From assembly GCA_963576725.1 (NCBI GenBank), contig OY755241.1, positions 61,501,071 through 61,565,070 of the forward strand: a DNA stretch of 64,000 bases. The letters run 5' to 3'. Below, piece by piece: positions 31,981-60,362 of this stretch. The translations under genes and the position numbers were made by a program. The notes beneath the pieces were generated by a model, which was not told where the DNA came from, did no database searches, and was given only the letters and a program-made list of their open reading frames with translations. Position 1 is the first letter of the stretch. Each line of letters begins with the position of its first letter. The DNA is from Azorinus chamasolen (taxonomy: Eukaryota; Mollusca; Bivalvia; Cardiida; Solecurtidae).

Positions 31981-34900
31981 GGGTATGTCTAAACACCGGA
32001 TATGACGGATATGACTCTCATATCCGCGGATATGAGATTCGCAGACTAAAATCGGCTACAAAAGCATTATTTTTTATTAGAAAAACATTTTATCGAGCCG
32101 AATGACTAATATTATATATATTTATTATTTGAAATACTTAAAATTTAATATACGGTGCGTAATAGGTAGTTATAATCGAATTTATCTCCACCGGATATGA
32201 CAGCCATATTCGTTGTGAGGGATAAACACCGGATATGACTTTTAAACTCCTAATATCTCTCAATAACTTAAGGTTTTAGTCAGGGAATGGCTACCTTATA
32301 ACACTTATGACTCTATAAAGGAATTTTGATCACATTTCAACTTAATAGAGGGTACAAAATTCATAATATTCGGCATGTACCGGGTAAGAAAGTCATATTC
32401 GTTGTAAGAGAGAAACAACGGATATAACTTGAAAACTCATAATAACTCGTAAAAAATTAATTTTTAGTGCAGGGAATGTCTATCTAATCACATTATGAAT
32501 CTTCACTGAAATTTTGCTCACGTTTCAACCAAAGAAAGCCAAACAAATCATAATATTCGGGGGTCATTCGGGAAGCACGGACCGCAGAGAAACGCTATGA
32601 GGGAGAAACACAGAATATGACCTTAAAACTCCTAATATCTCATAATAACCTAAAGTTAAAGTTACAGAACAGCTGCCGAATCACAGTATGACTCTTCACC
32701 GAAATATTTGCTCATGCTTCTACTAAAGAAAGTTGATATTCATAATAGTCGGCATGCGCCTGATGTTAAAGTCATATTCGTTGTGAGGGAGAAACACCGG
32801 ATATGACTTTAAAACTCATAATATCTCTCAATAACTTATGGTTTTAGTCAGGGAATGGCTACCTTATCACAGCATGACTCTATACTGGAATTTTGATCAC
32901 GTTTCAACTTAATAGAGGGTACAAAATGCATAATATTCGGCATGTACCGGATATGAAAGTCATATTCGTTGTGTGGGAGAAACACCGGATATGACTTGAA
33001 AACTCATAATAACTCGTAATGAGTTATTTTTTAATGTAGGGAATGGCTATCTTATCACATTATGAATCTTTGAACACTGAAATTTTGCTCACGTTTCACG
33101 AAATAAAGCCAAACAAATCATAATATTCGGGATCATTCGGGAAGCACGGACCGCAGAGAAACGCTATGAGGGAGAAACACCGGACATGATTTTAAAACTC
33201 CCAATAGCTCATAATAACTTAAGGTTTTAGTTAAGGAATGGCTACCTAATCACAGTATGACTCTATACTGGAATTTTGATCACGTTTCAACTTAAGAGAG
33301 GTTACAAAATCCATAATATTCGGCATATACCGGATATGAAAGTCATATTCTTTGTGTGAGAGAAACACCGGATATGACTTGAAAACTCATAATAACTCGT
33401 AATGAATTATTTTTTAATGTAGGGAATGGCTATCTAATCACATTATGAATCTTTGAACACTGAAATTTTGCTCACGTTTCACGAAATAAAGCCAAACAAA
33501 TCATAATATTCGGGATCATTCGGGAAGCACGGACCGCAGAGAAACGCTATGAGGGAGAAACACCGGATATGACTTTAAAACTCCCAATAGCTCATAATAA
33601 CTTAAGGTTTTAGTTAAGGAATGGCTACCTAATCACAGTATGACTCTATACTGGAATTTTGATCACGTTTCAACTTAAGAGAGGTTACAAAATCCATAAT
33701 ATTCGGCATATACCGGATATGAAAGTCATATTCGTTGTGTGAGAGAAACACCGGATATGACTTGAAAACTCATAATAACTCGTAATGAATTATTTTTTAA
33801 TGTAGGGAATGGCTATCTAATCACATTATGAATCTTTGAACACTGAAATTTTGCTCACGTTTCACGAAAGAAAGCCAAACAAATCATAATATTCGGGATC
33901 ATTCGGGAAGCACGGACCGCAGAGAAATGCTATGAGGGAGAAACACCGGATATGACTTTAAAACTCCCAATAGCTCATAATAACTTAAGGTTTTAGTTAA
34001 GGAATGGCTACCTAATCACAGTATGACTCTATACTGGAATTTTGATCACGTTTCAACTTAAGAGAGGTTACAAAATCCATAATATTCGGCATATACCGGA
34101 TATGAAAGTCATATTCGTTGTGTGAGAGAAACACCGGATATGACTTGAAAACTCATAATAACTCGTAATAAATTAATTTTTAATATGGGGAATGGCTATC
34201 TAATCACATTATGAATCTTCACTGAAATTTTGCTCACGTTTCAACTAAAGAAAGCCAAACAAATCATAATATTCGGGGGTCATTCGGGAAGTACGGACCG
34301 CAGAGAAACGCTATGAGGGAGAAACACCGGATATGACTTTAAAACTCCCAATAGCTCGTAATAACTCAAGGTTTTAGTTAAGGAATGGCTACCTAATCAC
34401 AGTATGACTCTATACTGGAATATTGATCACGTTTCAACTTAAGAGAGGTTACAAAATCCATAATATTCGGCATATACCGGATATGAAAGTCATATTCGTT
34501 GTGTGAGAGAAACACCGGATATGACTTGAAAACTGATAATAACTCGTAATAAATTATTTTTCAATGTGGGGAATGGCTATCTAATCACATTATGAATCTT
34601 AAATGAAAGAAAAACCAAACAAATCATAATATTCGGGGTCATTCGGGAAGCAAGGACAGCGGAGAAACGTTATGAGGGAGAAACACCGGATATGACCTCA
34701 AAACTCCTAATATCTCATAATAACTTAAAGTTAGTTATAGAATGGCTGTGAAATCTCAGTATGACTCTTCGCCGAAATATTTGCTCGTAAGAAATCACAA
34801 TATCATAATATTCGGCATGCACTGGATATGAATGTCATATTCGTTATGAGGGAGAAACACCGGATATGACTTTTAAACTCGTAATATCTCTTATTAACTT

Positions 34901-35250
34901 TATGTTAAAGGTATGGAATGGCTACCTAATGACAGTATGTCTCTTCACTGAAATTTGTGCTCAGGCTTCAACTAAAGAACGCTAAAAAAACATAATATTC
35001 GACATGCAAGAGGTGACCGCAGAGAAACGTCCCGGAGATATGTAGATAATCTTGAGCCTCAAAGGCATTCTCATAATTTCTCACAATAAAAAAGTTTAAG
35101 TTTGGGGAATGGCTACTTATTCACATGCTTCAACTAAAGAAAGATAAAGAAATTTATTATTTTCGGCATACAGGAACACGGACCGCGGAGAAACGTCCCG
35201 GAGAAATATGGACAATCTTGAGCCTGAAAAGCATTATGTATTCTAAATAA
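31981..35250 (+). repeat. Left arm satellite, about 190-bp monomer
   Basis: About 17 monomers with CACCGGATATGAC, GTCATATTCGTTGTGAGGGA, GGAATGGCTACCTAATCACA and CATAATATTCGGCATG. Between 33.2 and 34.4 kb alternating 188- and 195-bp monomers form a 383-bp higher-order repeat (starts 33235, 33618, 34001, 34382). Confidence 0.92.
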
Positions 35251-35580
35251 TTGAAAAGACCGGATATGAAGCTAAAATTGGTTAAAACTGGTTTGAAGCA
35301 TACTCGATTAAGTTTTAACCTCTTTCAAAGTGTGTCAATATTTCTAAATACATGTATTCATCAGGTAAAGACATTGTCAATAACGCTGTAATTTTATAGG
35401 TATAAAAAATACCTGATGCGTTGTATTGCAAAACCTTTAACCTTTAGCCTGGTGAGCAATTTATTTCATTGGAGAATTTCTCACGATTCATTTACCTTCT
35501 GTGAAAAACAAATCAAGTCACATCTGGGTTCAATCTGTTTGCAGAAGTAAACATATACCTGTCCTCGCCAAGCTAAAGGT
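35251..35580. other. Unassigned sequence inside the giant element
   Basis: AT-rich, no gene; CCTTTAACCTTTAGCCTGGT near 35430 recurs at about 36165. Confidence 0.35.
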
Positions 35581-36345
35581 TTTACTTTTTACTCCATGAA
35601 TACGCCTTTGTACGCCTTAGCAAACACAGTAGACCCAGATTGGAGGCTCCTATAGAAGCCGTCTGATTAGGGTCTGCTCGGTTTGCTTATGATATAATAT
35701 AGATAAATGTTAAAAGCATAATACTTTTCTTAGATACTCAGAATTAAATCTTTCGAGCCGAATATCTAGCTGTAACCGATTTTTATCTCTCAGTCATATG
35801 AATGGCCGCATATGAATTTCATATTCGATTGGACGGAGAAACGCAGGATATGACTTTAAAACTCATGATTACGCATACATATTTAAGGTTGAACCAGAAG
35901 GTATGCTGTTTTACACATTATTCCTATTTTCTGGAAGTTTAACTGTTAATTATTACAGGTAAGAAAACTATAAAAAAAAACAACCTATGTTTATTACTAA
36001 AATATATGAGGTGCCTTATCTTTATATGAAACTTATATTATGTTATGGCGGATAGCCATAGGATATGATCTAAGGAAAAGGATAAACGCCTTTAATAGTT
36101 ATCTGTCTGAAACGCGCTAATAAGTATTTATATAAAAAAAAGTATTGTGTGCTGCATATCAGGGCATTCAACCTTTAGCCTTGTGAGCAAACTTATTTCA
36201 CTAGAGAAATTAAGTTTTCTTTCAGTTATCGCGGTTTATTTAGTTTTTATCTATGTTCAAATGCGGAATACCTAGCTAAGCGTTTTTTTTTTATTTCCCA
36301 CAGATTTGAAAAGCAAGTGCGTTAGGACTGAGAAGCACTGGATAT
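35580..36345. repeat. Family A half-element and diverged satellite
   Basis: 35583-35720 is a family A left half with hairpin (AACACAGTAGACCCAGATTG). 35750-35900 is diverged arm satellite (CATATGAATTTCATATTCG, GGAGAAACGCAGGATATGAC). Confidence 0.6.
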
Positions 36346-36348
36346 TAA

Positions 36349-36598
36349 TTAACCCTTTCCCTCATATAAACGTGTTTTCACGCATTTGCCAACCGAGTAA
36401 ACCCAGATTAGACGGCTCCTAGAGGAGCCGTCTGATCAGGGTATACTCTGTTTGCTATTGGAATTTGATAGATATGTTTCTTTGCTTTTAAAAATGGCTA
36501 CAATGATCTACCTTCCATGTTTCATTACAACTACTTCATCCATGAACATTCAGTAGGTATTGAACTTTGTAATAAACACAGAACAGGGAAAGGGTTAA
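36349..36598. mobile_element. TTAA hairpin MITE, family A long form, complete (250 bp)
   Basis: TTAACCCTTTCCCTCATA at the left, hairpin apex GACGGCTCCTAGAGGAGCCG, GAACAGGGAAAGGGTTAA at the right. Confidence 0.87.
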
Positions 36599-38510
36599 TC
36601 TAAAGCTCGTTATGTCGCATACATACACACTGTTTAACCAGTAAAATGCTTCACATTATGGATCTTCCCTGGAAGTTCACTTCAAATTAGAGCTAAGAAA
36701 AATCATTTCAATGACACCCACCCCCACCCGCTCCCTGTCCTGTGATAGGAAATATATACATGCATTTGTTAGGACACACCGGTAACTTCCCAAAGAAATT
36801 CGGGTATGAGCAACAAAAGCATCTCTTCTAAAATATTATATTTTATATATATTATCTATATTCTATTAAACATATTTATTAACAGTAAATATACATATAC
36901 CGAAAATAACATTTTTAGTGCCGATTATTTAGACTAGTGATTAAATATCTCCCACGGATATGGAAGACGAAGAAACACCGGATATGAATCTATATTTAGA
37001 ATTATTCTGCAAGTACGAACACTTCATTCATTCATTCATTCATTCATTCGGGTTTTTTCCTTTGTTCGTTCGTTCATTCGTTCGTTAGAAAGGAATTACT
37101 TTCACAATATGACTGTTTACATGGGGTACCGTTTACATGGGTTCTATTTCCCTAAGATCTGAAAATCCTAGTAATTCGCAATGAGAAGTATCGAATATGA
37201 GCCACGGAAACCACATATCTTGTAAAAAGGCATTGTTCTCACACAATGACTAAACTTTTTACAAAGTAATTGGCGATGCAAAGAGAATAGTCCCTAATTT
37301 CAAGGTCTAGAGGCCTGTTTGTACCGATTACTCCATGTGTCTAAAATTTACAGCTTATCTGGGTCTATTATTTAAATTGTAATTACTGGATGTACAACAA
37401 TGAAGGTTATGGTTTCATGGAACATGTTCAAACTAAGCAGCTGATCTGGGTCATTGAATGCAAATGACAATTTTTAAGTTGATTGTTAGCGATATTTATC
37501 CTTTAACATGCTACAGAACCAAACTAAAGGCAAGCAAGTTCGACTATATTCTACGGATGAATTTCATCTTAAACATGCTGTTCGTAATTATGAAATCTAC
37601 TCTGATTTAACAGCAAATTTCTTCTAAAGATCAGCATCTTACTTCATTGAATTTCCGTTCCTCGTTTTCATCTATATTATAAATTACATAATATCCCCAT
37701 CCCATGCTAAGTAACTAAGTCAGGCGTGAACCTAAGCCACGCCCTTATGAAATATGATTGGTCAATTCGATAATGGGGCAGAAGATAACGATTGAGTCAA
37801 AGAGATACCATATATCACGGGTCTCAATAAAAAAGGAAGCTGTAGGCTATAATTTTTAATCTATATACATTCGCATCGGGATGCTATTGAACAGAATGTA
37901 TGTGTTAAAATATTTTACCTGCTGTCTGCTCAAGTTAATAAAGTATTAATTATAACTTGCTGGAACCTTATTCAAACTCAGTTGTTAACTATAAACAAAT
38001 GTACTAGTTACATGTATATTTCCGGTAATGAATGTTAAGTTAAAATCAGGATATACACCGTTCGGTCTATAATAATATAAAATAACATAATTTGTAAAAC
38101 TTATTTGCAATCTTGATATTGTATTATTTCACTACATTCACTCCTCGCTTTGTTTTATTCTGGTAGTTGTGTATAAAAATACAGCATGAGTTTTTGTTTT
38201 GAGAACAGTTACGTTGAAAATGCAGTTTGCTGAATAGTATTTGCACATATTCATTTCAAAAAAGGTTTATTCAATTCTTTAATGTATAAGATATACAACA
38301 ATATGGTTAGAGCAAACTAACAAGTGTAAAGGCATAAAAACTATACAATGTGGTATTTATGTAATGGGTATCTATAAATATATGAATGTTTGGGTGGACG
38401 TACGGACTGACGGACAGGCGGACGGAATCCGGTATGGACCAACGAAGGGTGACCGAATTAATGGAATGACCGAAGTAATGAAGTAATGAATGAATGAACG
38501 CACATTCCCG
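36599..38510. other. Interior of giant element, non-coding
   Basis: Contains an (ATTC)n / (GTTC)n microsatellite at 37022-37087, a satellite remnant at 36950-36990, and GTGAACCTAAGCCACGCCCT at about 37725, which recurs inverted near 56350 and directly near 47070. 38395-38440 (ACGGACAGGCGGACGGA) recurs inverted near 56510. No gene seen. Confidence 0.5.
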
Positions 38511-38519
38511 TTTCAACTA

Positions 38520-39930
38520 AATATAGCTAAAAATCATAATATTCGGCATGTACCGCATTTGAAAGTCATATTCGTTGTGAGGGAGAAACACCGGATATGA
38601 CTTTAAATCCCATAATATCTCATATTAACTTAAGGTTAAAGTTATGGAATGGCTACCTAATCATCGAATGGCTCTTTACTGAAATTTATGCTCAGGCCAC
38701 AACTGAATAAAGCTTAAAAAAAATCATAATATTCGGCACGCAGGGGCACGGACCGGAGACAAACGCCCAGGAGATATATGGATAATCAAGAGCCTCAAAT
38801 GCAATCTGCATTCTGAATAGTTATACAGTTTAGTGTGTTGACTGACTGTTTGCAATGCTTATAAATTGATTTACAGTGCGTAATAAGTAGTTATAATCGA
38901 ATTTATCTCCCCCAGATATGAAAGTCATATTCGTTGTGAGGTAGAAACACCGGATATGACTTTAAAACTCCTAATATCTCATAAAAACTTACGGTTTTAG
39001 CACGGGAATAGTTACTTAATCACAGTATGACTCTTCACTGAAATATTTGCTCACGTTTCAACTAAATAAAGTTGAAAATGCATTATATTCCGCATGTAGG
39101 CCTACCGGATATGAAAGTCATATTCGTTGTGAGAGAAAAGCACCGGGTATGACTTTAAAACGCCTAATATCTCAAATTAACTTCAGCTTAAAGTTATGGA
39201 ATGGCTACCTAATCACAGTATGGCTCTTCACTGAAACTCATGCCCAGGCCTCAACTAAAGAAAGCTAAAAAAAATCATAATGTTGGGCATGCATCGGATA
39301 CGAACGACATATTTCGTTGTGAGGGAGAAATACCGGATATGACTTTATATCTCATAATAACTTAAAAGGTTTAATTGGGCAATGACTAACTAATCACAGC
39401 ATGATTTTTCATTGAAATTTTGCTCATGCTGCAACTAAGGAAAGCTAAAAAAAATATTTAAATCGTCATGCACGAGCACGGACCGCAGAGAAACGCACCG
39501 GAGATATATGGATAATCTAGAGCCTTAAAAACGGTGTCGGGAAGAAATACCGGATATGACTTGAAAACACCTAATTTCTCCTTACAACTGAAGGTTTATG
39601 TTGCGGAATCGCTACCTAATCACAGTATGACTCTTCACTGAAATAATTGCTCGTGCTTCAACTAAAGAAAGCTAAATAAATTAATAATATTCGGCATGTA
39701 CCGGATATGAACGTCATATTCGCTGTGAGGGAGAAGCACCGGATATGACTTTAAAACCCAGAATATCTCATAAAAACTTAAGGTTTGAGTTGGGGAATAG
39801 TTACCTAATCACAGTATGACTCTTCCCTGAAATGTTTGCTCATGCCTCAACATAACATTCGGCATGCGGGAGCACGGACCGCAAAGAAACGCCCCATATA
39901 TATATTGATAATCTAGATCCTCAAAAGTAT
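38520..39930 (+). repeat. Arm satellite, internal block
   Basis: About seven diverged monomers of the same 190-bp satellite in left-arm orientation, with GCACGGACCG...GAAACGC variants. Confidence 0.88.
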
Positions 39931-40306
39931 TCTGTTTTCTAAATAGTTATGTATTGTTTATTATGGTTACTGATTGTTTGCAATGCTTAGACATTAATTG
40001 ACAATTGTCCTTTTGTAAATAAATCCCTTTGTATCCATTGTCGTGCCGTTACCGGCCAATACTTTTTTTCACAATAGAATAGTTACGAGCAATTGAGCAC
40101 GCCTATCACCATTTCCTGAATAGGTTGATAGTGGCTATATAAAACGGTAATACAACAGTAATACCCTATGTAACCGATTACAAACTATTTGCGCATGCAG
40201 ACGGCGTGGGTCTGGATTGGACACAATTGAATTTGTGTTGGATCCAAATCCAAACTGTTTGCCAATCATTTTAACTGAACAGTAATATAAGGTCAGATTT
40301 CGCTTT

Positions 40307-40517
40307 TTAACTCTTTGCACGCTGGTGACGAAAAAGTGATTACGTTTGCAAACGGTTTGGATCCTGATGAGACGCCACGTAACGCGGCGTCTCATCAGGA
40401 TCCAAACTGTTTGTCACTCTGACAGTATTTTGAAAAAATTCTCAAGATACTCATTTTGGAACAGTGGCGGACGACAATTGTTGCAGACGACAGTTTACCC
40501 AGCATGCAAAGAGTTGA
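40307..40517. mobile_element. TTAA hairpin MITE, family G
   Basis: TTAACTCTTTGCACGCTGG at the left and CCAGCATGCAAAGAGTTGA at the right. Strong hairpin AAACGGTTTGGATCCTGATG / CATCAGGATCCAAACTGTTT. A diverged relative lies at 45.88-46.09 kb. Confidence 0.8.
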
Positions 40518-40519
40518 TT

Positions 40520-41490
40520 ATATCTAGACCCATATTTATTTAATGCTAAGGTGAAGTTGAAGCATACTGAACTACATGTATTTTGTACTTACATTGTAAA
40601 CACATTATGCTTCTTGCATATGACATTAAAATAATAATTGTGTATACTTACTCATCGAATTATGCTGCAGACGAGAGAGAGGGTAGGAGTCATGCTTTCC
40701 TTCGCTCAAGTCTGCAGTAAATCTGAGTAGTAATTTAAGACAACAACAACAACAACAACAAAACAATAATTTAACAATGTAACCTCCTGTTGGTCTTGAC
40801 AATAATTTCGCTTTCGGTCATTGCTAAGAGCAACAAACGGGGTTACAAAAGGTTTTGTCTGATGCGTTCAGTTGTGTTATAATCTTCAATGCACAACGCA
40901 TTTTTATTCTGAATCTTGCTAAAAGATAATCATTATATGCAAACTAAATGTGTTTGCAATACCTGACTATTGCTTGTGTTTATATTATTATCTGATTATG
41001 ATACATATTATACTAAATTCAGTCGTATCATACATGTACTAAGGGTTCGCCTAAAATAATCAGTATACGCTTAAATGACATTCATAGTTCTAACTCATCC
41101 GTATATTACAACATAATCGGTTGTTATATTTTACCTTCCTTTTTCGATCTGTGTTATATAGCACCAGTGTTAAATGTGAAATGCACACATCTAGCATGAA
41201 TTAAAAAAATATAGAGCAGAACTATCGTTTAATTCTGGACCAATCATCAACACATGATGGCTGGTCAGGATCTAAACTGCTATGCAAGATTGCCTCAACG
41301 GACCAATGGAATATAATGGTCGTTTCCTGTAGTTAAAGTTCTATACGATTTCAATCTTTACAATACCTCACTGACACAACATATTTTGATTTACTTTATG
41401 CATGTATATTACTTGATGCTTTTGCTGTTCATAAAAAATGTGAACCAAAGCGTGAATAAAATTGAGTTGAGTTGAGTTTGAGTAATAAGT
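40520..41490. other. Interior non-coding sequence with a LINE-like tail
   Basis: (CAA)n at 40741-40766. 41340-41480 ends AATAAAATTGAGTTGAGTTG, resembling a LINE 3' end with a TTGAG tail. No coding sequence recognised. Confidence 0.4.
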
Positions 41491-41526
41491 AGTTATAATC
41501 GAATTTATCCCCACCAGATATGAAAT

Positions 41527-41848
41527 TCACAAAGTAACAGGAGGTAAAGTGAAGCCTGGAGCGTGACTCGAACCCGGGACCCCTCGCTTACAGGGCGACG
41601 GCTCTACCAACTGAGCTATCCGGGCTGCTATACGAGCTCCACACACCAGAACCACTATACTTCTCCTCCTTCACTTTTTTAGAGGTGCCCCAGCTCTCAG
41701 ATCGTGTTTCTCAATTGCATGGGCTGTCAAACACTTCTGACACCATTAAATTAACAGGAGGAAAAGTGCAGTCTGGAGCGTGACTCGAACCCGGGATCCC
41801 TCGCTTACAGGGCGAGTGCTATACGAGCTCCACACTCAAGAGCCACTG
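41527..41848 (-). mobile_element. tRNA-derived SINE, dimeric, inside the satellite
   Basis: Two tRNA-like modules (41554-41625 and a truncated one at 41773-41830) separated by a GGGGCACCTCTAAAAAAGTG segment. It interrupts a satellite monomer between CCAGATATGAA and GTCATATTGGTTGTGAGG. Confidence 0.65.
41554..41625 (-). tRNA. tRNA-Thr(TGT)-like SINE head, probably not a functional tRNA
   Basis: The 72-nt cloverleaf can be drawn: acceptor GCCCGGA/TCCAGGC (one mismatch), D arm TAGCTCAGTTGGTAGAGC, anticodon stem GTCGC/GCGAG, loop CCTGTAA with anticodon TGT, B box GGTTCGAGTCA. The T stem has two mismatches and position 33 is C rather than U. Confidence 0.45.
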
Positions 41849-41849
41849 C

Positions 41850-42200
41850 AGTCATATTGGTTGTGAGGGAGAAACACCGGATATGACTTTAACACACCTA
41901 ATATCTCGTACTTTAAGTTTAAGTTGGGGAATGGCTACCTAATCACAGTATGACTATTGACTGAAATGTTTGCTAATGCCCCAATTAAAGAACGCAAAAA
42001 ATCATAATTTTCGGCATGCATGAGCACATGTAAGTCATATTCGTTGTCAGGGAGAAACGCCGGATATGACTTTAATGTTCCTAATATCTCGTAATAAATT
42101 TTAAGTTTAAGTTACGTAATGGCTACCTTATCGCAGTATGGCGGTTCACTGAAATGTTTGCCCATGCTGCAACTAAAGAAAGCTAATTCTCAACAAGCTA
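41850..42200 (+). repeat. Arm satellite, short internal block
   Basis: Two diverged monomers (GAGGGAGAAACACCGGATAT, CAGGGAGAAACGCCGGATAT), with a further remnant at 42425-42490. Confidence 0.8.
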
Positions 42201-42514
42201 ACATGTTAATTGGCAAGCGTGTAATAAGATCTTTGTCTGCTGCCTAAGCAATAGAAATAATTTACAATTTATTGAAAAAAAAACAAAGTCTTTACTGCAC
42301 GTGTTCGTGAAATTAAAATGTCATTGTCAATGGGCAATATGTAGATATGCCGCTAGTGTATCTTACAATCGATTTGGTATTCAGTGTTTAAAGTTTAATT
42401 TACCGTGCCTAATAGTGCAGTTACCAATGAGTATGTCTCCCACGGATATTAAAGACATATATGCAGTGAATGAGAAACACCTGACATAAATCTATTTATT
42501 TAGCAAACTTACTT

Positions 42515-42720
42515 GACCCTTTACTCCATAAATACGCATGTATATGCCTTTGCAAACAGAGAAGACCCAGATCAGACGAGTCCTATATGAGGCGTCTGAT
42601 CAGGGTCTGCTCTATTTGCTTATGAATTAATATTGAAATGATTTTATAGATTTTGCGATTGCCAAACATTCGTGTGTTCAGTTGCTATTATAAGAATATA
42701 ATCGAATTAATTTGCATTAC
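42515..42720. mobile_element. Family A MITE, partial
   Basis: CTTTACTCCATAAATACGC, AAACAGAGAAGACCCAGATC hairpin with apex GAGTCCTATATGAGGCG, then GCTTATGAATTAATATTG. Confidence 0.65.
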
Positions 42721-42754
42721 GTTCTTTTTGAAATGTAGTCGAATATCTAATTCA

Positions 42755-43081
42755 TTTAAACCAAAGGTGCTCGACGCATGCTTGGACTCACCCATGGAAA
42801 CAACCCCCCCCCCCCCCCCCAAAAAAAAATAAAAAAAATTGTGATCGTTATATGTTAAACTAGCCTAAAACTATCTATTTGAACCTTAAACCACTCCGAA
42901 AAACAAGAAAAGCACGACCCGGAAAAAAATTTCCTATCGGGTCTATATATGTATTATACATATATAGACCCGATAGGAAATTTTTTCCGGGTCGTGTTTT
43001 TCTCGTTTTTCGGAGTGGTTTTAGGTTCAAATAGATAGTTTTAGGCCAGTTGAACATGCTTCGATCACATTTTTTTTTTTT

Positions 43082-43112
<31 letters not shown>

Positions 43113-43900: not shown

Positions 43901-43904
43901 TATT

Positions 43905-48408: not shown

Positions 48409-48484
<76 letters not shown>

Positions 48485-48589: not shown

Positions 48590-48637
<48 letters not shown>

Positions 48638-48959: not shown

Positions 48960-49005
<46 letters not shown>

Positions 49006-49547
49006 AACAGAAAGAGAGCGAGCGAGAGAGAGAGAGAGAGAGAAGTGGGGGATATGCGTTTATCTAGTTTATATTGTTTTTGCGAAACATCATAAGAAAA
49101 TGTTGGTTTGAAGATAGTCCACAGTGTAGACCCTGATCAAATACTGAGCTGTAAGCGCAGTATATATATAGAGAGAGACAGAGAAATAGAGAGAGAGACA
49201 GAGAGAGAGAGAGAGGAGAGTAATATGGTATATCCAGTTTACATGTATATTGTTTTCGCGAACATCATAAGAAAATGTTGGTTTGAAGATAGTCCACAGT
49301 GTAGAGCCAGATCAGATACTGAGCTGTAAGCACAGTATATGGTCTGAAGTCTGTACTGTGAATATTGATGGGCCATGCCGGTTTCAATTAAACAAAAATG
49401 GTAGATCCGGACATGCATATGACCAGGGTATACATGGGCCTACAGTACGTGTGCATCTTCAATGCTGCATTTTTCTTAATGATATTTTCGATTTGGATCC
49501 GATATTTCAATGTATTATAGTAACAGGGAGAGAGGGAGGGAGGGAGG

Positions 49548-49583
<36 letters not shown>

Positions 49584-49640
49584 GGTATATCCAGTTTACA
49601 TGTATATTGTTTTCTCGAACATATGGAATCAGATAAAGGG
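48330..49640 (-). repeat. Tandem repeat with embedded (GA)n, right mirror block
   Basis: Reverse-complement relatives of the 43.9-45.5 kb units: GTTTGAAGATAGTCCACAGT near 48535, 48702, 49104 and 49285, with (GA)n tracts at 48413-48477, 48594-48641, 48963-49048, 49169-49216 and 49545-49580. Confidence 0.85.
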
Positions 49641-49654
49641 AAATTTTTGTGTAT

Positions 49655-50270
49655 TAACTCGTTCCAACATATAAGCATTTGCAAACAGAGTAGACCCAGA
49701 TCAGATCCTGATCGAGTGTATCACAAAAGCCTCTCACTACAAAAGCTTTAAGTAACTTTAAGTGTTTTGTTAACTGTAATTAACAGCCAATTAACATTAA
49801 TCTATTTAATTTTAGATTGATTTGTCTAGAAGTTTTCATTTAGCAAATATGGTAGATCCAGATCAGAGCTGTATTTTTTTATGTTGGTCTACTTTGTTTG
49901 AAAGTTAAGATATGGAATTCGATAAAGGGAAAGATTTGCGAGTCAGTTAATTGCGGTAATATTATAATAGGTTATATACCATTATGTGCTAATATTGTAT
50001 CATATGTATATCTATTGAATCTATATTAAATGTCACGAAGCAAACAAGATTGATCATAAAGCTTTAAATATGATTTGGGTCTACCATGTTTGAAATAAAT
50101 ATAAGGAATCTCCTTGTGATTTACAATTTTTACTTTTATAAGGAGTGTGCTAATTACACGTACCTTACTTAATGAATCTTTTTTAACTTGTCATTCAGCA
50201 AACAGGGTAGATCCAGCCTTAAGGCTCCTTAGGGAACTTCGTGATATGGATCTACACAATCGGCAAATGT
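49655..50270. repeat. Four diverged hairpin units in loose tandem
   Basis: Hairpin-like motifs (AGCAAACAGGGTAGATCC, TAAGGCTCCTTAGGGAAC, ATATGGATCTACAC) recur near 49680, 49850, 50040 and 50200, about 170-185 bp apart. Confidence 0.5.
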
Positions 50271-50499
50271 ACATGAACTGCATTTTACAGTGAAACAGTA
50301 CGTGTGCTAGAAAAAAGATAATACGTTTCCGTATAGCTGATATCCGATATTTATGGTCAAAGCGAATTTTAAGGAATTTCTTATATTTGGAAATGGAAAT
50401 GGTTCACAGGATTTCCCTGCGGTATCAAATGGAAAATTAAAGTAAACAGATAAACTGTGAGAGTGAAACCATTCTTACATGTTGAAAATTACAATATTT

Positions 50500-50560
50500 A
50501 TGTTCATTTCCGGTGTTTCTCCCTCCTGATGAATATGGAATTCATATCTGTGTGACTCCG
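50500..50560 (-). repeat. Satellite remnant in right-arm orientation
   Basis: TTCCGGTGTTTCTCCCTCC and GAATATGGAATTCATATC: the first satellite piece in inverted orientation right of the centre. Confidence 0.6.
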
Positions 50561-50720
50561 TTTAAATGACACATTCGGCACTTAAAATGAGATTTTCAGT
50601 ATATGTACTGTATAGTAAATTAATAGCGCAGCTCGACGAAGTGTTATTATAAAGGAAAGACACTTTGAAAACAAACGTAACAACTTTAACCTGTTTATGT
50701 CTGTTAGTTTTCAGATATTA

Positions 50721-50914
50721 CAGAAAACCTCAGTATAACGGCCACTAAATTGGGTTAATTATTTGGTAGTTAGGACAGGTGGCCGCTTAAAGCAAGATGA
50801 AAGTAACTCCTATAGGAGCGTTCTGTTTTACTTTCACCTTGCTTTAGGCAGCCACCTGCCTTTAACACAAAACACTTGTTGTAATTTAGTGGTCGTTATA
50901 GAGAGGTTTTCCTG
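50721..50914. mobile_element. pogo-like MITE, family C2 (194 bp) with TA duplication
   Basis: CAGAAAACCTCAGTATAACG at the left and GTTATAGAGAGGTTTTCCTG at the right, with TA outside both ends. Hairpin with GGAGCGTTCTGTTTTACTTT; the left arm is partly deleted. Confidence 0.78.
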
Positions 50915-51774
50915 TACGTTCAATACAACTAGAAGACAGTCTCTGGAAATTAAATTTTAAATATACATAAAGACCAGTAAAACACATATGTAAGGCAATC
51001 GGGCCGATACAAAAATTCGGTGGAATAAATAAAGCTTCGAATAGGAATCTGTTTTATCAATAACTCCCCCCCCCCCCTCTATATGAAAGCCTTTTCGCGC
51101 ATTTGCAAACAAAGTAGACCAATATCCTATATGGCTCCTATATGAGTAGTTTGATCAGGCCTGGAATTCACCAACACGTACTTGTACTTGAAACCCAAGC
51201 ATGTACTTCAAATCCCAAGTCCGTCTTCGAATCTAATTCACCAACGCGTACTTGTACTTGAAACTCAAGCATGTACTTGAATTTCAAGTATATAGACCGA
51301 TTTTTCCAAGTCTACCTCTTAGCAGACTTGAAACATAATTCACGAGATTCAAAATGGCGTCTGTCCATAAACAAATCAAGCTTCATTTGATAGAAAATGC
51401 ATTTTACGGGCCTGGGCGGTTTATTATTGATAGGACCAACCCACTGGAAATCTTGACGGAAGACGAGGTCTTCCGTCGCTACAGATTTCGACCACAGACT
51501 GTTTTGTATGTCGTCGGGTTACTTGTAAATGTGTTACAATTTGGAAGCAAGAGGAACTCGCCACTGACACCGCTGCAGCAAGTGCTGGTTTTTCTTAGGT
51601 TTCTGGCTACAGGCAGCTACCAGATTGTCATCGGGGACACACTTGCGGTCAGTCAGTCGACTGTCTGCAGGTGTTGTCGTCGAGTGGGCTGCCTGTTAGC
51701 CAGATTAACAGCACAATTCGTGCGGTTTGACTTTGAAAAGGATGCTATGAAACAGAAATTCAAACAAATAGCAG

Positions 51775-52632
51775 GTAAGTTTTAGAATGAAAGTTTTATT
51801 CATCAAATCTCTACACTATCATTCGTTTTCTTGGCAGTTGCGAAGCGACAACATCCGGGTAAGGGGCATTACTCTTTTTGAAATTATAAAACACAGTACC
51901 GAACGCGGGTAAAAAATGCGGCGCATATTGCCGTTAATAAATATTTTATCCGTTGAATGAGATATTTATCGAAATATAACTAAGCAGGTGACACTAGTGT
52001 ATGCCTTTCGAATCAATATTAAATCTTTAAATAAATGAATGAATGATTAAATATTGTCTTTCATAACTGCTTTGAAAACACAAACTGACCAATAATTTGC
52101 AGGGACTGCTTAGTATCAGCAATGTATATATCAACTTACCATTTCATTTTAAATTGCATGATAAAATACTATTGTATGATAACATATAGACCTACCTATG
52201 ATGGTAGTTTTTCATATGTATGATATTCAGTTGATGTGCATTCAGAGAGCAATTTAATTTATTTTCTGCATACTAGTTTTATTTTGGAGATATATTTCAT
52301 GGTTTCATTGTAAAACTATTGCAACTCCATAAGTATCTCTAAGAAAATGAATATTCTGACAACTATATTTGTTTCATCTTTATCTTCCGTGATTATTTAT
52401 GAATCTATAAAGCATATGATTTTTTTTTAAATTCACAATCTGAGTGTCAGACACTTTGGATCCTATTCAGCCAAAAAATTAACCAGTATCCAAACTATCG
52501 ATTAAAATTTTCAGTCTTACAATAGATTGCATTGCACTAAATTTGCAGGCAGTCCTATATGTGTAATAAGGATCTGAATACAATTAATGAAAAGTTATAT
52601 ATATATATATTTAACTCTCTCTCTCTCTCTCT

Positions 52633-52678
<46 letters not shown>

Positions 52679-52740
52679 TGAAAAGATAAATTGACACCAC
52701 TTGTGAAGATTTACATTTTTATTCCCTACCGGTTTCACTA
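51775..52740. other. Harbinger intron 1, unassigned part
   Basis: AT-rich intron. A (CT)n and (TA)n block at 52614-52672. No other repeat recognised. Confidence 0.45.
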
Positions 52741-52744
52741 CTGC

Positions 52745-52758
52745 TCATCTACCTATAC

Positions 52759-52812
<54 letters not shown>

Positions 52813-52862
52813 AGGGAGGGAGGGAGAGAGAGAGAGAGAGAGGGAGAGAGAGAGAGAGAGAG
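52745..52862. repeat. (TA)n-(GA)n/(GGGA)n microsatellite
   Basis: ATATATATAT then AGAGAGAG with GGGAGGGAGGGA interruptions; it sits against the left end of a family B MITE. Confidence 0.92.
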
Positions 52863-53068
52863 ATTGACGACTCTGTAAAAGTCACTTTGTTAAACCATTG
52901 TGATAAATAGAGCATTTCTGCTATACGAGCAAATGCTCTATTTATCACAATGGTTTCAAACTACAAAATTATTTTTAAAAAAATCCCTTTCTCTAGTTAA
53001 TGCTCCTTTTCGGTAGATTCATTCAAAGAGGTTGTATCTAAAAATAGCCCATGATGTAATGGGTTAAC
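52862..53068. mobile_element. Family B MITE, reverse orientation
   Basis: GACTCTGTAAAAGTCACTTT, hairpin GTGATAAATAGAGCATTTC / GCAAATGCTCTATTTATCAC, right end ATGTAATGGGTTAA. It ends about 15 bp before the acceptor of the nuclease exon 2; its left TTAA is lost in the GA repeat. Confidence 0.8.
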
Positions 53069-53394
53069 ACAATATTATTTTTCAGGTTTCCCCAATGTCA
53101 TTGGTTGTGTTGACGGCACTCAAATAAAAATTTCCAAACCGAAACAGCACGAACACGAGTATGTTAACAGGAAAGGTTTCCACTCCCTGAATATTCAGGT
53201 AATGAGACATACATACTATTAAATTTATTTACCAAACGGGACCTCACTCTTTGAGGAAATTTTAATTTAAACAGTTTTTGTCTTCATGTTATAAATGACT
53301 GAACAGTAACAGGTATATGTATGCTGTAATTATCTTTATTCGGGTTGAGGGAAAACATGCAAATTGGAATACAAATTAAATATCTAATTTAAAA

Positions 53395-53606
53395 TCTATC
53401 CTAAATACAGATGTTTGTAAACAGAGTAGATACAGATCAGATAGCTCCTGCATGAGCTGTCTAATCAGAGTCTATTCCGTTGCTTATGAAATTATAACAG
53501 ATTTAACGAACTATTGTATTCTTAAGCCATCATGAAAAATCAATCATTCAATACATATTCATGATGTCAATAATTCATACATAATAATCAACAATGAAAG
53601 GGTTAA
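53395..53606. mobile_element. Family A MITE in Harbinger intron 2
   Basis: AAACAGAGTAGATACAGATC hairpin with apex TAGCTCCTGCATGAGCT; 3' end CAATGAAAGGGTTAA. Confidence 0.72.
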
Positions 53607-53639
53607 TATCGAAATAACTTGTTTATTCACAATGAAATT

Positions 53640-53882
53640 TTAACCCGATACTCCATAAATAATCCATGCTACGCCTTTCCAAATAGCGTAGACTCAGATC
53701 AGATGGCATCTGATCAGGGTCTGTTCGCTTCAGACATAATTTAGATTTGATGCTAGAGTTTCTGCCATGTCCAAAAAATCGCCATCTCATGTGCTTATTA
53801 TAACTATTAATCCTAATTAATATTTACAATATCATCAGTTCTTACATTCATATTCATGGAGTAAAGAGTTAAAATGCAATTT
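53640..53882. mobile_element. Family A MITE in Harbinger intron 2 (243 bp)
   Basis: TTAACCCGATACTCCATA at the left and GGAGTAAAGAGTTAA at the right. The hairpin is shortened (GATCAGATGGCATCTGATC). Confidence 0.75.
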
Positions 53883-54034
53883 TTGATTTGACAAATAATA
53901 TTAAGATAACAAAAAGCCTCAATATCATGCTGAAAATCAGACCTAAAGCAGCTTGAATATGGATGAGACTCAAAATTACTAAAGAAAACATACAAGTCTG
54001 AATACAGATCATTTTGTTTAACTATTTTCTTCAT

Positions 54035-54130
54035 ACAGTTGCTTTTTCATATCTTTACAATCAGAGTAGACACAGATCAGATTGTTCCTATAGGAGCAGC
54101 CAAGTTAGGGTCAGCTCCTTTTTATTATGA
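54035..54130. mobile_element. Family A hairpin fragment
   Basis: CAATCAGAGTAGACACAGAT, apex TTGTTCCTATAGGAGCAG. Confidence 0.55.
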
Positions 54131-54321
54131 ACTTGCAATAAAAATTGTAAAAATTTTTTCACTGTATACATAGAATTTCCCATAGACTAACAGGCAGTGT
54201 TATACAAACATGAATATTTTGTTAATAAAATATAATGGAAATAATAATATACCAATCATAAGCACCCGCCAAATTTACATGTAATTAGTGTTACATATCC
54301 CAAGTTCTTTATAGTATAACG

Positions 54322-54896
54322 TAAAAACTCTAAACCAGAATTCTAGTGTAGAATAATTTTTACACTTCTAGGCAGGTGGCTACTTAACCTTTTCCCTCAT
54401 ACAAACATGTTCTTACGCATCTGCAAACAGAGTAGACCCAGATCAGACGGCACCTAGAGGAGCCGTCTGATCAGGGTCTGCTCTGTTTGCTAAAAGAATC
54501 TGATATATCTGTTTCTTTACTTTCTTAACCCTTTCCCTGTTCGGTATTTTGGCCAAATTTCAATACCTGAATATTCATTAACAAAACAGTTTTGAAGAAA
54601 TATGTAGGGTAGAACATTGTAGACATTTTAGAAAGCAATGAAATATATCTATCAAATTCTATCAGCAAACAGAGCAGACCCTGATCATACAGCTTCTCTA
54701 CAATGTTCCACTTATCATATTTCTTTATAACTATTTTCTTAATGATTATTCAGTAGGTATTGAAATTTTGCCTACAGAACAGGGAAAGGGTTAATGCAGT
54801 GTGAAAGTCATGAAGAAAGCTCTTACAAAGGATTTCTTTATTTCGTTCAACCTGGATTAATTTGCCACATGTCCAGTTTAGAAAGGTTTTACTGTA
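54322..54896. mobile_element. pogo-like MITE with nested family A copies
   Basis: Outer GTAAAAACTCTAAACCAG and GTTTAGAAAGGTTTTACTG. Inside, a family A left half with hairpin (54386-54522), then a copy whose two ends are both the family 3' end (TTAACCCTTTCCCTGTTC at 54525, CAGAACAGGGAAAGGGTTAA to 54793). Confidence 0.65.
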
Positions 54897-55374
54897 TTCT
54901 GTTTATCAAATATTTAGCACTGATGATCATTCTGTTAATTCATGTGCTGGATAGAACAAGTCAAAGACATATATATATACATATAGGTCTCTGGTCAGGT
55001 TATACCTGGTACTCGCTTTGAAAAATAACTGCTGCTGTTTGAGAAATACCTCAAACACATATTCATTTTCCAGGCAAATGATTATAAATGTGAATAACAC
55101 ACTCATTTTCTGTCTTAACTAATTTGTAAATATATATTTCATTGATATCTTTTGCAGATGATATGTGATGCAAACTTTATGGTAACAAATTTGGTTGCGA
55201 AGTGGCCTGGCAGTACACATGATGCCCGTATCTGGAGGGAGAGTGAACTGTGCAAGGAATTCGAAAATGGTATGTTTTACAAGTATTAAAATTATAATCT
55301 TTTAACTTTTCAATCCGTTAATTTTTTCTTTATTACAAATTTCACTACCTGCAGACTACTCATGGGAAAAAGAT

Positions 55375-55645
55375 GATTTGAAGGTGTAGTCATTTCGTAA
55401 TGTAAAGAAGCAGATCTTACAAACTTTTATGCCAGGATGTTTAAATGTGATAAATCTTTTTTGATGACTATTAGGTGATGCTTCATACCAAATATCAAAG
55501 GTCTAGGCCTTACAGTTCAAAAGAAGATTTCTAAATATTTTCCTATGAAAAACTGATAAGCCCCATAGCAGGGCCATTTTTAATCCAGGGTCATAATTTG
55601 AACAATCTTTGTAGAGGACCATTAGATAATGCTACATACGAAAGC
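55375..55645 (-). repeat. Pearl-type repeat fragment inside Harbinger
   Basis: Reverse-orientation units: GCTTCATACCAAATATCAAA, CCTATGAAAAACTGATAAGC, GGGCCATTTTTAATCCAGGG, CATTAGATAATGCTACATAC. It directly abuts the broken Myb/SANT-like ORF. Confidence 0.75.
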
Positions 55646-55726
55646 TCTACACTTTTCACGATCAAACACTGCTCGGACCAAAACTGTCTCCTCTAGGGTG
55701 CTCCATCTGTTTCTTATCGTTTCCAT
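55645..55726 (-). pseudogene. Myb/SANT-like Harbinger accessory protein, N-terminal fragment
   Basis: Starts ATG at 55726-55724 and reads METIRNRWSTLEETVLVRAV + FDREKCR before running into the pearl repeat. RWS-EEE-like spacing followed by a hydrophobic helix is how Myb/SANT-like domains begin in Harbinger second proteins (family knowledge). About 27 codons remain, convergent with the nuclease gene. Confidence 0.6.
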
Positions 55727-56179
55727 TATAGCTGTTTGACAGTTCTCTATGTTGTGACAGACGATACACGAAAATGGTCCCCGTGTACATAAACGCTAAA
55801 TGTAAAGCGGGGAACAAAATTCCGCCAACGCACCTGCTACGGTCGCTTCACCATTGACAAATTTCAATTCTTCGGATTATTCCGTAAATCTAGGTAGAGG
55901 TTATCCGAATGAGGCGTACTTGACCAAGTACGTACTTGAAGCGGTTGGTGAATACGATTTTCAAGTCTGTCTTGAAAATACACATTTGAAGAACATACTT
56001 GGTCTTAGGATTCAAGTACAAGTACGTGTTGGTGAATTCCAGCCCTGGGTCTGCTCTTTTGGATTTTGAAATTATATAGATTTTGTCAAAACAAAATCCC
56101 TTAAAAAGTTTACATTAAAAATAAATAAATATTCATGTCTTTTTTCTAACATGAATACTGAACAGGGAAAGGGTTAATT

Positions 56180-57060
56180 AATAAATTGTTCAACAGACAG
56201 CAGTTAAAGGTATTGGAATACAGGTAAAATTAATAGCCCGCAGAAATCAGGCGGAATCGTGAAATATGATGTGTTATCAACACTTGCGATCGTTCGTTAT
56301 CTTGTATCCTATTGTTATTTGACTTATTGACCAATTAAAAATCAGAGGCGTGGCCTAACTAATGGATGTATGACTGCTGCTGAGCATGCGATATGGATTA
56401 TATATGTGCAAGCATATAAGAAATATAAAATGAAATAGAAAATAGTTAATAACATGCCTCTCCAATGTAGTCAGGTATGGTCGGATCTGATCTTGTTGAC
56501 AATTCCTGTCCGCCTGTCCGTTAGATATTCCCTGCCAACATCCATACGCACGTACCCACTCTCTGTTTGTCCATCTGTTCGTTCGTTCGCCCATCTGTCT
56601 GGTATCTTGATACACCCCCAAACAAAATTATTCCCTCCGTAATGAATCACTTCAATAAATAGTCGTATTTATTGCTACAAAGCAGTAGAACATGTTTTTA
56701 TGAGAAATAATGTTTCCGGGCTCATATCCGATCTTTCTATGTAAGACGAGTCGATAATAAATATTCATGTACAATACATGTTAAAACTGTAATAGAAGCA
56801 GCTTATAAACTTGTTAATCGTTGAGTAATTATTTCCTGTAACTTGTGTTTAGATTCATGTCCGGTAAGCACTATTTTTAATTTGTTCTGAACATCAGAAA
56901 TTGACAGACAGGATAATAATCTGGGATTTAGAAATTAAACGCCACTTGCTTAGGCAGCATTTATTTATCCGTAATTAATTAATTCATTAATTTATTCATT
57001 GTGCTCCTATGAACATCTTTAGTAAAATCATGAGCAGAAATTCCCAAACTTTAGTTATTA
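56180..57060. other. Interior non-coding sequence, mirror of 37-38.5 kb
   Basis: CGTGGCCTAACTAATGG (56350), CTGTCCGCCTGTCCGT (56505) and GTTCGTTCGTTCGCCC (56577) are inverted relatives of motifs at 37.0-38.4 kb. No gene. Confidence 0.5.
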
Positions 57061-57084
57061 TTACGTAAAAGGGATTGTAAAGTA

Positions 57085-60000
57085 ATATCTGGTGTTTCTC
57101 CCTCACAACGAATATGACATTCATATCTGGTGAAGATAAATAGATTCATATCTTTTGTGTCTTTCGGTGGTTTATGTACATCTTCGGTACTGACAATGAG
57201 ATTTTGATTCCGTGTACATATACGGTGAAAGAAATATTAATCCATAATTGTATTTGATAAAGTTAACATTAAAAATATACACATGTCCGGTGGGTACCAG
57301 ACGGATATGATTAGGGGCTTCATATCTTCAGTAGGGAATGCTATTTGCATTTTACTCAGCTGCAATATGAACTGAATTTTCAGCCATAATGTGAAATAAC
57401 AGCATGCCTTCTACTTAAACCCATAGTAAATGGTCGTAATAACGAGTTTTATATATTTTAATCTGTTAGGAGGTAAATGGAGTTTTAAAGTCTTATCCGG
57501 TGTTTCTCCCTCAGAACGAATATGACTATCTTATCCGATGAAGATAATTTCGATTATAACTAATTACTACGAAATGTAAATTAATTTCTAAGCATTGCAA
57601 ACAATCAGTCATCACACTAAACTATACAACTGTATAACTATAAAGAATACAAAATGCAATTGAGGCTCTTGATTATCCATATATCTCCGGGCACTTCTCT
57701 GCTGTCCGTGCTCCTGCATGCAGCATATTATGATTTCTTAAGCTTTCTTTAGTTGAGGCCTGAGCAAAACTTTCAGTGAAGAGCCATAGAACGATTAGGT
57801 AGCCATTCCCTGGCTTAAACCTGAAGTTGATACGAGATATTAGGAGTTTTAAGGTCATATCCGGTGTTTCTCCCACACAACGAATATGACTTTCATATCC
57901 GGTGGAGATAAATTCGATTATAACTACTTATTAGGCACTGTAAATTAATTTATAAGCATTGCAAACAATCATTCAACACACTAAGCTCAGTAAACTGTAT
58001 AACTATTCCGAATACAGATTACGTTTTCAGAGCCTCTTGATTATCCATATATCTCCGGGGGAGTTTCTCTCCGATCCGTGCTCCAGCGTGCCGAATATTA
58101 TTTTTTTAGCTTTCTTTAGTTCAGGCCTGAGCAAAAAACGTTCAGTGAAGAACCATACTGTGATTAGGTAGCCATTCCATAACTTTAACCTGAAGTGAAT
58201 TTGAGTACTAGTAAATTTAAAGTGTCATACCCCGTGCTTCTCCCCCACAACGAATATGACTCATATCTGGTACATGCCGAATATTATGATTTTTCAGCCT
58301 TATTCAGTTGAAACGTGAGCAAAAATTCAGCGAAGAGTCATACTGGGTCATATTGTGATTAGGTAGCCATTCCCTGGCTTAAACCTGAAGTTATCGAGAG
58401 ATATTAGGAGTTTTAAGGTCATATCCGGTGTTTCTCCCTCACAACGAATATGACTTTCATATCCGGTGGAGATAAATTCGATTATAACTACTGTACTTAT
58501 TAGGCACTGTAAATTAATTTATAAGCATTGCAAACAATCAGTCAACACAATAAACGGTATAACTATTCCGAATACAGATCTTGATTATCCATATATCTCC
58601 CGGCTTCGGGGCGTTTCTCTGCGGTCCGTGCTTCTTCATGACCACGGAATATTATGATTTGTTTGGCTTTCTTTAGTTGAAGCATGAGCAGAAAATTCAG
58701 TAACGAGTCAAAATGTGATAAGGTAGCCATTCCCCACATTAAAAATTAATTTATTACGAGTTATTATGAGTTTAAAAGTCATATCCGGTGTTTCTCTCTT
58801 ACAACGAATATGACTTTCATATCCGGTACATGCCGACTATTATGCATTTTGTACCCTCTATTAAGTTGAAACGTGATCAAAATTCCAGTATAGAGTCATA
58901 CTGTGATAAGGTAGCCATTCCCTGACTAAAACCTTAAGTTATTGAGAGATATTATGAGTTTTAAAGTCATATCCGGTGTTTCTCCCTCACAACGAATATG
59001 ACTTTCACACCAGGCGCATGCCGACTATTATGAATATTTCCAACTTTCTTTAGTAGAAGCATGAGCAAATATTTCGGTGAAGAGTCATACTGTGATTCGG
59101 CAGCCATTCTGTAACTTTAACTTTAGGTTATTATGACATATTAGGAGTTTTAAGGTCATATCCGGTGTTTCTCCCTCATAGCGTTTCTCTGCGGTCCGTG
59201 CTTCTTCGTGACCCCCGAATATTATGATTTGTTTGGCTGTCTTTGGTTGAAACGTAAGCAAAATTTCAGTGAAGATTCATAATGTGATTAGATAGCCATT
59301 CCCTACATTAAAAATTAATTTATTACGAGTTATTATGAGTTTTCAAGTCATATCCGGTGTTTCTCCCACACAACGAATATGACTTTCATATCCGGTACAT
59401 GCCGAATATTATGCATTTTGTACCCTCTATTAAGTTGAAACGTGATCAAAATTCCAGTATAGAGTCATACTGTGATAAGGTAGCCATTCCCTGACTAAAA
59501 CCTTAAGTTATTGAGAGATATTATGAGTTTTAAAGTCATATCCGGTGTTTCTCCCTCACAACGAATATGACTTTCACATCAGGCGCATGCCGACTATTAT
59601 GAATATTTCCAACTTTCTTTAGTAGAAGCATGAGCAAATATTTCGGTGAAGAGTCATACTGTGATTCGGCAGCCATTCTGTAACTTTAACTTTAGGTTAT
59701 TATGAGATATTAGGAGTTTTAAGGTCATATCCGGTGTTTCTCCCTCATAGCGTTTCTCTGCGGTCCGTGCTTCTTCGTGACCCCCGAATATTATGATTTG
59801 TTTGGCTTTCTTTGGTTGAAACGTGAGCAAAATTTCAGTGAAGATTTATTATGTGATAAGATAGCCATTCCCCGCATTAAACATTAATTTATTACGAGTT
59901 ATTATGAGTTTTAAAGTCATATCCGTTGTTTCTATCTTACAACGAATATGACTTTCCTACCCGGTGCATGCCGAATATTATGCATTTTGTACCCTCTATT

Positions 60001-60362
60001 AAGTTGAAACGTGATCAAAATTCCAGTATAGAGTCATAAGTGTTATAAGGTAGCCATTCCCTGACTAAAACCTTAATTTATTGAGAGATATTAGGAGTTT
60101 AAAAGTCATATCCGGTGTTTATCCCTCACAACGAATATGGCTGTCATATCCGGTGGAGATAAATTCGATTATAACTACCTATTACGCACCGTATATTAAA
60201 TTTTAAGTATTTCAAATAATAAATATATATAATATTAGTCATTCGGCTGGATAAAATGTTTTTCTAATAAAAAATAATGCTTTTGTGGCCGATTTTAGGC
60301 TGCGAATCTCATATCCGCGGATATGAGAGTCATATCCGTCATATCCGGTGTTTAGTTATACC
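57085..60362 (-). repeat. Right arm satellite, about 190-bp monomer
   Basis: About 16-17 monomers inverted relative to the left arm: CATATCCGGTGTTTCTCCCT, ACAACGAATATGACTTTCAT, AGGTAGCCATTCCCTGACTA. The last about 280 bp (60083-60362) mirror 31981-32260 nearly exactly. Confidence 0.92.

Follow-up and report, generated by a model that had tools for sequence, protein, structure and literature searches.

The locus and its boundaries

The window, by which we mean the whole 64,000-nt stretch of Azorinus chamasolen DNA analysed here, corresponds to C7:61501071-61565070 in a 1.72-Gb assembly and contains no Ns. Four exon-like pieces at 148-12986 (-) have Proteasom_PSMB matches (26S proteasome non-ATPase subunit) and are a predicted host gene beside the element described below, while frames with RVT_1 reverse-transcriptase matches lie on opposite strands at 16304-17152 (+) and 18388-20121 (-). 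The main feature of the window is a plus-strand element of 28,383 bp, which we refer to as E1. Its borders and arms are as follows.

31973..31980, left target-site duplication, ACCAAATG
31981..60363 (+), whole element E1; left end GGGTATGTCTAAACACCGG, right end (read inward) CGGTATAACTAAACACCGG
31981..32190 (+), left terminal domain, not part of the satellite array
32191..35007 (+), left satellite arm, ~188-bp monomers in ~383-bp dimers, with AAACACCGGATATGAC about once per monomer
38506..39855 (+), inner satellite patches with the polarity of the left arm; more at 41850-42182
57075..58467 (-), inner satellite patches with the polarity of the right arm
58647..60153 (-), right satellite arm, the left-arm satellite inverted
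60154..60363 (-), right terminal domain, not part of the satellite array
60364..60371, right target-site duplication, ACCAAATG
61700..62190 (+), uninterrupted copy of the target repeat (empty-site paralogue); the filled copy is 31589-31980 plus 60372-60435

The termini of E1 begin GGGTATGTC on the left and CGGTATAAC on the right. Aligned from 31982 and 60362, the two arms are identical at 561 of 585 bp without gaps, and a preliminary description of this DNA, which had noticed about six differences over roughly 280 bp, proves exact, with 274 of the outermost 280 bp identical, six mismatches and no gap. The same description had seen one sequence flanking both ends, and GACCAAATG does occur on the plus strand of the window only at 31972 and 60363, which are the two borders of E1. 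It had been taken as a 9-bp duplication, a length that has to be corrected to 8 bp (ACCAAATG); the base following ...TTATACC is G (C on the opposite strand) in all ten paired copies of the family and is therefore counted within the element, so that E1 spans 31981-60363 and the ninth matching flank base is explained as its terminal base.

When the left and right flanks of E1 are joined and aligned to 61700-62190, 401 of 499 positions are identical (80%), and the 51 gap columns all lie away from the junction, where GAACAAGTG stands against GACCAAATG. The uninterrupted repeat copy can thus be read as an empty site, as had been proposed. Another copy of the target repeat, inverted and ~90% similar, is found at 60901-61264; like the copy at 61700-62190, it lies just to the right of E1.

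Satellite arms and the terminal motif

Counting from the outer borders, the left arm of E1 measures ~3.0 kb and the right arm 1.7 kb, more if the inner patches are included. Long inverted arms made of tandem repeats are what places the element in the foldback class, and the earlier account of a 28-kb foldback transposon with satellite arms stands, with arms, target duplication and empty-site paralogue all in place.

The 16-bp terminal motif AAACACCGGATATGAC begins at base 11 of each end. Scanning with up to two mismatches (20 shuffles as control, mean 0.0) gave the same result in E1 and in a second copy, E3, namely 27 forward sites in the left half, 14 reversed sites in the right half and none of opposite polarity; in E1 this amounts to 41 sites, ends included, all pointing outward. 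This polarity follows largely from the arms being inverted copies of one another, but the inner patches obey it too. One short copy, E9, breaks the rule with three reversed sites in its left half.

Copies of the family across the genome

Whether E1 shares its outer boundary with other copies was asked of the whole genome, and such copies are present. The terminal 33-mer, with up to three mismatches, has 90 places (reversed-pattern control, 0), and a search with the left 320 bp was scored for 40 of 1,058 first-look candidates, so that all counts for this family, here called family A, are lower bounds. There are at least 12 giant loci (E1-E8, E10, C9, C76 and C17, the last three mainly as coordinates). 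The ten paired copies that were read measure 1.8-28.9 kb, the giant ones being 16-29 kb; they are listed with the number of matching bases in the expected 8-bp duplication, followed by four further loci.

E1, 28.4 kb, 8/8
E2, 28.9 kb, 8/8
E3, 20.8 kb, 5/8
E4, 22.4 kb, 8/8
E5, 16.0 kb, 7/8, runs of N
E6, 24.5 kb, 8/8, runs of N
E7, 19.1 kb, 5/8
E8, 26.4 kb, 8/8, runs of N
E9, 1.8 kb (1.77), 1/8
E10, 16.4 kb, 5/8
C76 locus, ends ~50 kb apart, 7.5 kb read
C17:48688687-48720136, family A pair, known mostly by coordinates
C9 copy, only the right end found, at 79574702
L060, complete 195-bp derivative with its own 8-bp duplication

The same two outer ends therefore occur at different genomic sites, with exact 8-bp duplications in half of the copies read (5/10); among 1,020 control pairs taken at shifted positions, 3 matched exactly. 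In E3 the 8-mer expected at the border stands 7 bp farther from the element, inside a short local repeat. The divergent E10 lacks a matching duplication; together with E7 and E9, which likewise have no convincing one, it could be a recombinant. The five exact duplications differ in sequence, which makes these five, at least, separate insertions. In all ten paired copies the left end starts G-GGTAT and the right end C-GGTAT. Among 20 further single ends, C precedes all 15 of the right-end or GAC type and G precedes four of five of the left-end type, the exception being L037, with T before GGTAT.

It could be supposed that these places were multiplied by segmental duplication, or joined by the assembly, instead of by transposition. 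Some ends do have flanks in common (one end of E10 and two other C16 places; L034, L035, L040 and L045; L038 and L046), so that part of the 90 places must be duplicated DNA, and three copies contain runs of N. This explanation is nevertheless barely credible for the family as a whole, given five copies with different exact duplications in different flanks, and an E1 that is free of Ns and has an empty paralogue.

A second alternative is that E1 is a composite, in which two separate short foldbacks flanked ~20 kb of DNA and moved jointly, like the Ising transposing element. Short copies of family A do exist (195 bp and 1.77 kb), and Drosophila foldbacks can mobilise the DNA between them, according to the parts of the source used here (PMC6431247). 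In E1 and E3, however, the terminal sequence stands once at each outer end, and the inner ends that were sought in both copies were not found. We consider the composite very unlikely as a description of the present form, although it may fit the origin of the family.

Core and nested sequences

The plainest full copy, E3 (20.8 kb), served as reference. Over the whole of E3, E1 runs collinear at 96.0-99.1% identity per block, and it carries additional stretches of 1,491, 387, 927 and 4,887 bp. The features of the interior are the following.

39988..41478, 1,491-bp stretch, present in E1 and absent from E3
41551..41626 (-), tRNA-Thr-like (SINE-like) sequence, in the shared core
42762..43148, 387-bp stretch, present in E1 and absent from E3, with inverted ends, MITE-like
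44093..44458 (+), inner inverted repeat, with its partner at 48623..48988 (-), 93%
44747..45673, 927-bp extra stretch in E1 inside an array of 362-bp CT-rich units (local expansion)
46015..46915 (+), 901-bp core probe
51160..56046, E1 insertion of 4,887 bp that E3 lacks, bounded by inverted ends CCTGGAATTCACCAACACGTACTTG of its own

Judged from this alignment, most of the excess of E1 over E3 is nested insertions together with local repeat expansion. The 4,887-bp insertion holds a 148-aa frame with a sub-threshold match to HTH_Tnp_4 (Pfam). The inner inverted pair of E1 consists of CT-rich repeats, and the segment between these repeats is inverted in E7 relative to E3. In a search of Rfam with positions 31000-62500 of the window, one of nine matches, the tRNA-like sequence, reached the gathering score and the other eight fell below it. 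Mean substitution of seven copies against E3 is 2.0%, measured in blocks of at least 93% identity.

The core probe was scored at 40 of 84 first-look candidates and is full length at eight of them (E1-E4, E7, E8, C76 and C9). Family ends lie on both sides at seven of these eight and, at C9, on one side, 9.6 kb away. At the other 32 scored places the match is partial; 31 of these matches fall in probe stretch 249-574, which behaves as a dispersed repeat of ~320 bp, and the remaining one, at C17:48702931, lies inside a further family pair. A host locus as the source of the core was rejected on this distribution. The core contains both a tRNA-like sequence and a dispersed repeat, which means that it has taken older repeats with it.

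Families B and C

Two further families are built on the same plan, again with unequal G/C end bases. Family B was found through an end-like sequence inside a family A place, L029 (C1:66477571-66478630), where a ~35-bp family A end runs directly into a family B end; one element has probably inserted into the other. Its ends are GGGTTGGTC and CGGTAGGTC, and the five copies read are 2.9-6.1 kb long, with an exact 8-bp duplication in three, one of 9 bp in the fourth and none in the fifth. Its own motif occurs 26 times forward on the left and 22 times reversed on the right, never with the wrong polarity.

Family C was read in one copy, of 1.7 kb, with ends GGGTATGAC and CGGTATGAC and a 9-bp duplication, sitting inside a Merlin transposase gene. 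Its forward motif sites all precede the reversed ones, one reversed site lying left of the midpoint. In all three families, then, the repeat unit of the arms holds the terminal motif, in one polarity per arm apart from the exception of E9. The locus of the family C copy, L060 (C4:83710500-83717460), is a nest in which the 195-bp family A derivative accompanies the 1.7-kb foldback in the Merlin gene. The C-type end pattern CGGTATGACTAAAA[CT]ACG, with up to two mismatches, has 671 matches in the genome against 85 in the control. Among the matches listed (about the first hundred), three pairs stand 3.48-3.50 kb apart on C1, C2 and C3, and other pairs 1.3-5.8 kb apart. Each of the C1, C2 and C3 pairs has one CGG and one GGG end, and the genome-wide list of MULE matches places none within them.

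The search for a transposase

The preliminary description had credited E1 with no transposase of its own, and none was found, either in E1 or in the other family A copies, from frame lists and from Pfam comparison of a few frames. Of the frames of at least 150 aa in the DNA shared among E1-E8, all bear microsatellites but a 160-aa frame of E1 (window 43157-43636, -), which has no Pfam match and no counterpart among the frames of at least 150 aa in the other copies; a coding core was rejected on these grounds. E2, E4 and E6 have longer frames in stretches that they do not share with other copies, the longest, of 1,150 aa in E4, being presumably a LINE polyprotein. Substitution counts by codon phase, taken per 500 bp, are uneven in several windows (13/46/20 at E3 5501-6000, for example); viewed without a formal test, this leaves room for small exons.

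It had also been suggested that a transposase with matching ends be looked for elsewhere in the genome. The genome-wide domain searches behind this question were those for MULE and Merlin, and they returned the domains themselves, with no such ends at the MULE loci that were read. Phantom enzymes can carry a FLYWCH domain next to the MULE domain, and the genome has 36 MULE-domain and 34 FLYWCH matches, the two standing side by side at ten places (coordinates compared by eye). By the same comparison none of the 36 MULE matches lies inside a family A interval or a listed family B pair, the nearest to family A being C76:109517, 3 kb outside an end. Stretches of 4-7.5 kb around four MULE loci from three families (C76; C6 and C19; C8) contain no CGGT/GGGT ends with a duplication. 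The MULE gene beside the C76 copy was accordingly set aside as the mover, as it lies outside the copy and the stretch read around it contains no matching ends, and the FLYWCH-MULE families of C6 and C19 and of C8 were set aside as the source for want of matching ends. Three of the ten FLYWCH-MULE places were read, and none is tied to family A ends.

Merlin domains have 23 matches in the genome, one of them 3.2 kb from a family A-like end. This neighbour was rejected as proof of the mover, the end there belonging to the complete 195-bp derivative that adjoins a Merlin gene interrupted by a family C foldback. At another Merlin locus, L061 (C18:1989800-1996200), two inverted copies are 99.5% identical over ~2 kb, each with an open frame of 384 aa.

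Assignment to a superfamily

The superfamily had been given as Mutator-like with a query. Duplications of 8 bp (A), 8-9 bp (B) and 9 bp (C) lie within the Mutator-like range of 8-11 bp given in the excerpt of PMC6446971 used here, and they are compatible with Mutator and Merlin as well as some other superfamilies. The best discriminator available between superfamilies is the pair of unequal end bases. CGGT/GGGT ends are found in 10/10 copies of A, 5/5 of B, 1/1 of C, 1/1 short derivative and 19/20 single A ends. Tm1, a Mutator/Foldback element of root-knot nematodes, is described in the portions of PMC3169594 drawn on here as having ends CGGTTAA and CCTACCC, duplications of 8-10 bp and a Phantom-type transposase; the second end reads GGGTAGG inward, and the pair resembles CGGTATAAC and GGGTATGTC of family A. 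Mutator type is favoured because three families share 8-9 bp duplications and unequal CGGT.../GGGT... ends with Tm1, and we think it somewhat better than an even chance that the enzyme is a Mutator-superfamily transposase of the Phantom/Muta/Tm1 type. The assignment goes no higher, with none of the FLYWCH-MULE loci read (3/10) tied to the ends; among the 36 MULE matches and the four MULE loci read, no MULE transposase lies inside an element with family A-type ends. Of the earlier assignment, then, the fit of duplications and unequal ends to Tm1 holds, and a transposase with such ends is the part that was not found.

The same kind of element might instead be moved by Merlin (IS1595-like) or by another superfamily with 8-bp duplications, which we regard as rather unlikely. 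Merlin is defined, in the part of PMC8101967 used here, by terminal 5'-GG, terminal inverted repeats of 24-462 bp and duplications of 8-9 bp; the family A duplication is within that length and the right end starts C-GG, and Merlin genes are present in the genome, one of them near a family A-like end. That proximity looks like chance, however, as the end is a complete derivative with its own duplication and the Merlin gene holds the family C copy; the one further Merlin locus read, L061, has a different terminus, GGTCCGCACC; and the unequal G/C end bases match Tm1 but are not seen for Merlin in that part of the source (PMC8101967).

Comparison with known systems and proposed mechanism

Cut-and-paste transposons are recognised by a fixed pair of ends, by target duplications and by an empty site. 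We put a probability of roughly 0.8 on the reading that E1 is a giant non-autonomous foldback transposon, moved in trans, with its arms serving as putative binding arrays and the enzyme probably of Mutator type. No recognisable transposase gene being present in any copy, the enzyme would act in trans: made elsewhere, it would pair both ends and move the unit by cut-and-paste, and the tandem repeats of the arms would form an array of extra putative transposase-binding sites. The array role is suggested by the recurrence in these repeats of the motif found from base 11 of each end, in outward orientation throughout.

Several known systems resemble family A and are cited here for what the available portions of the papers state. 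Like family A, Tm1 has composite arms with tandem repeats, 8-10 bp duplications and non-autonomous derivatives, but it is ~1-2.6 kb long with a 14-bp unit and has a transposase-coding member, whereas the family A giants are 16-29 kb long with a 188-bp satellite unit and no coding member was found (PMC3169594). Tetris of Drosophila virilis is likewise a non-autonomous foldback with 8-10 bp duplications and a middle without apparent coding capacity, and its arms, as in family A, consist of tandem repeats (~220 bp) partly identical to the terminal domain (PMC4079207). Its arms reach 1,735 bp at most and three complete copies are described, unlike the ~3.0-kb left and 1.7-kb right arms of E1 and a conserved core of many kilobases (PMC4079207). 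Extra binding sites in the arm repeats were proposed for Tetris (PMC4079207), and in Galileo of Drosophila a footprint was the starting point for locating them (PMC3688188). The model applied here is that of Galileo, in which the tandem repeats of the long arms carry additional binding sites (PMC3688188); for the family A repeats this role is inferred from sequence. Galileo differs in its P-superfamily enzyme, its arms of up to ~1.26 kb and its 7-bp bounding sequences (PMC3573991). Muta1 of Aedes aegypti, an active Mutator-like foldback with duplications of 8 or 9 bp, resembles family A in duplication length and in its foldback-type arms with subterminal tandem repeats, but is 3.2 kb long, encodes its transposase and has a 12-bp repeat unit (PMC5225508).

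Composites in which two foldbacks enclose hundreds of kilobases have already been described (PMC6431247, in the part used here). Among the open-access papers listed by literature searches, no title or opening of an abstract describes a single foldback element of the present size. The structure is thus that of a foldback transposon, a known kind, and what is new is the scale as a single element and the constant long core without a recognised gene.

Significance

The satellite arms may go further and act as a long-range device, in which dozens of outward putative binding sites would hold the ends together and let the enzyme move 20-28 kb; this is possible, though on balance we doubt it. If it is true, the satellite would have arisen under selection for transposition and would scatter satellite DNA over the genome, in no fewer than three families, and 20-28 kb would be moved without a transposase gene, a length far above what is usual for such transposons.

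As a rule non-autonomous DNA transposons are small, and here a unit of ~20 kb, without a recognised transposase gene and with a fixed pair of ends, stands at at least 12 places. As the copies carry other repeats, and one has an internal segment flipped, they appear to move and reshape tens of kilobases of DNA. The connection that family A makes between satellite DNA and transposition is concrete and testable.
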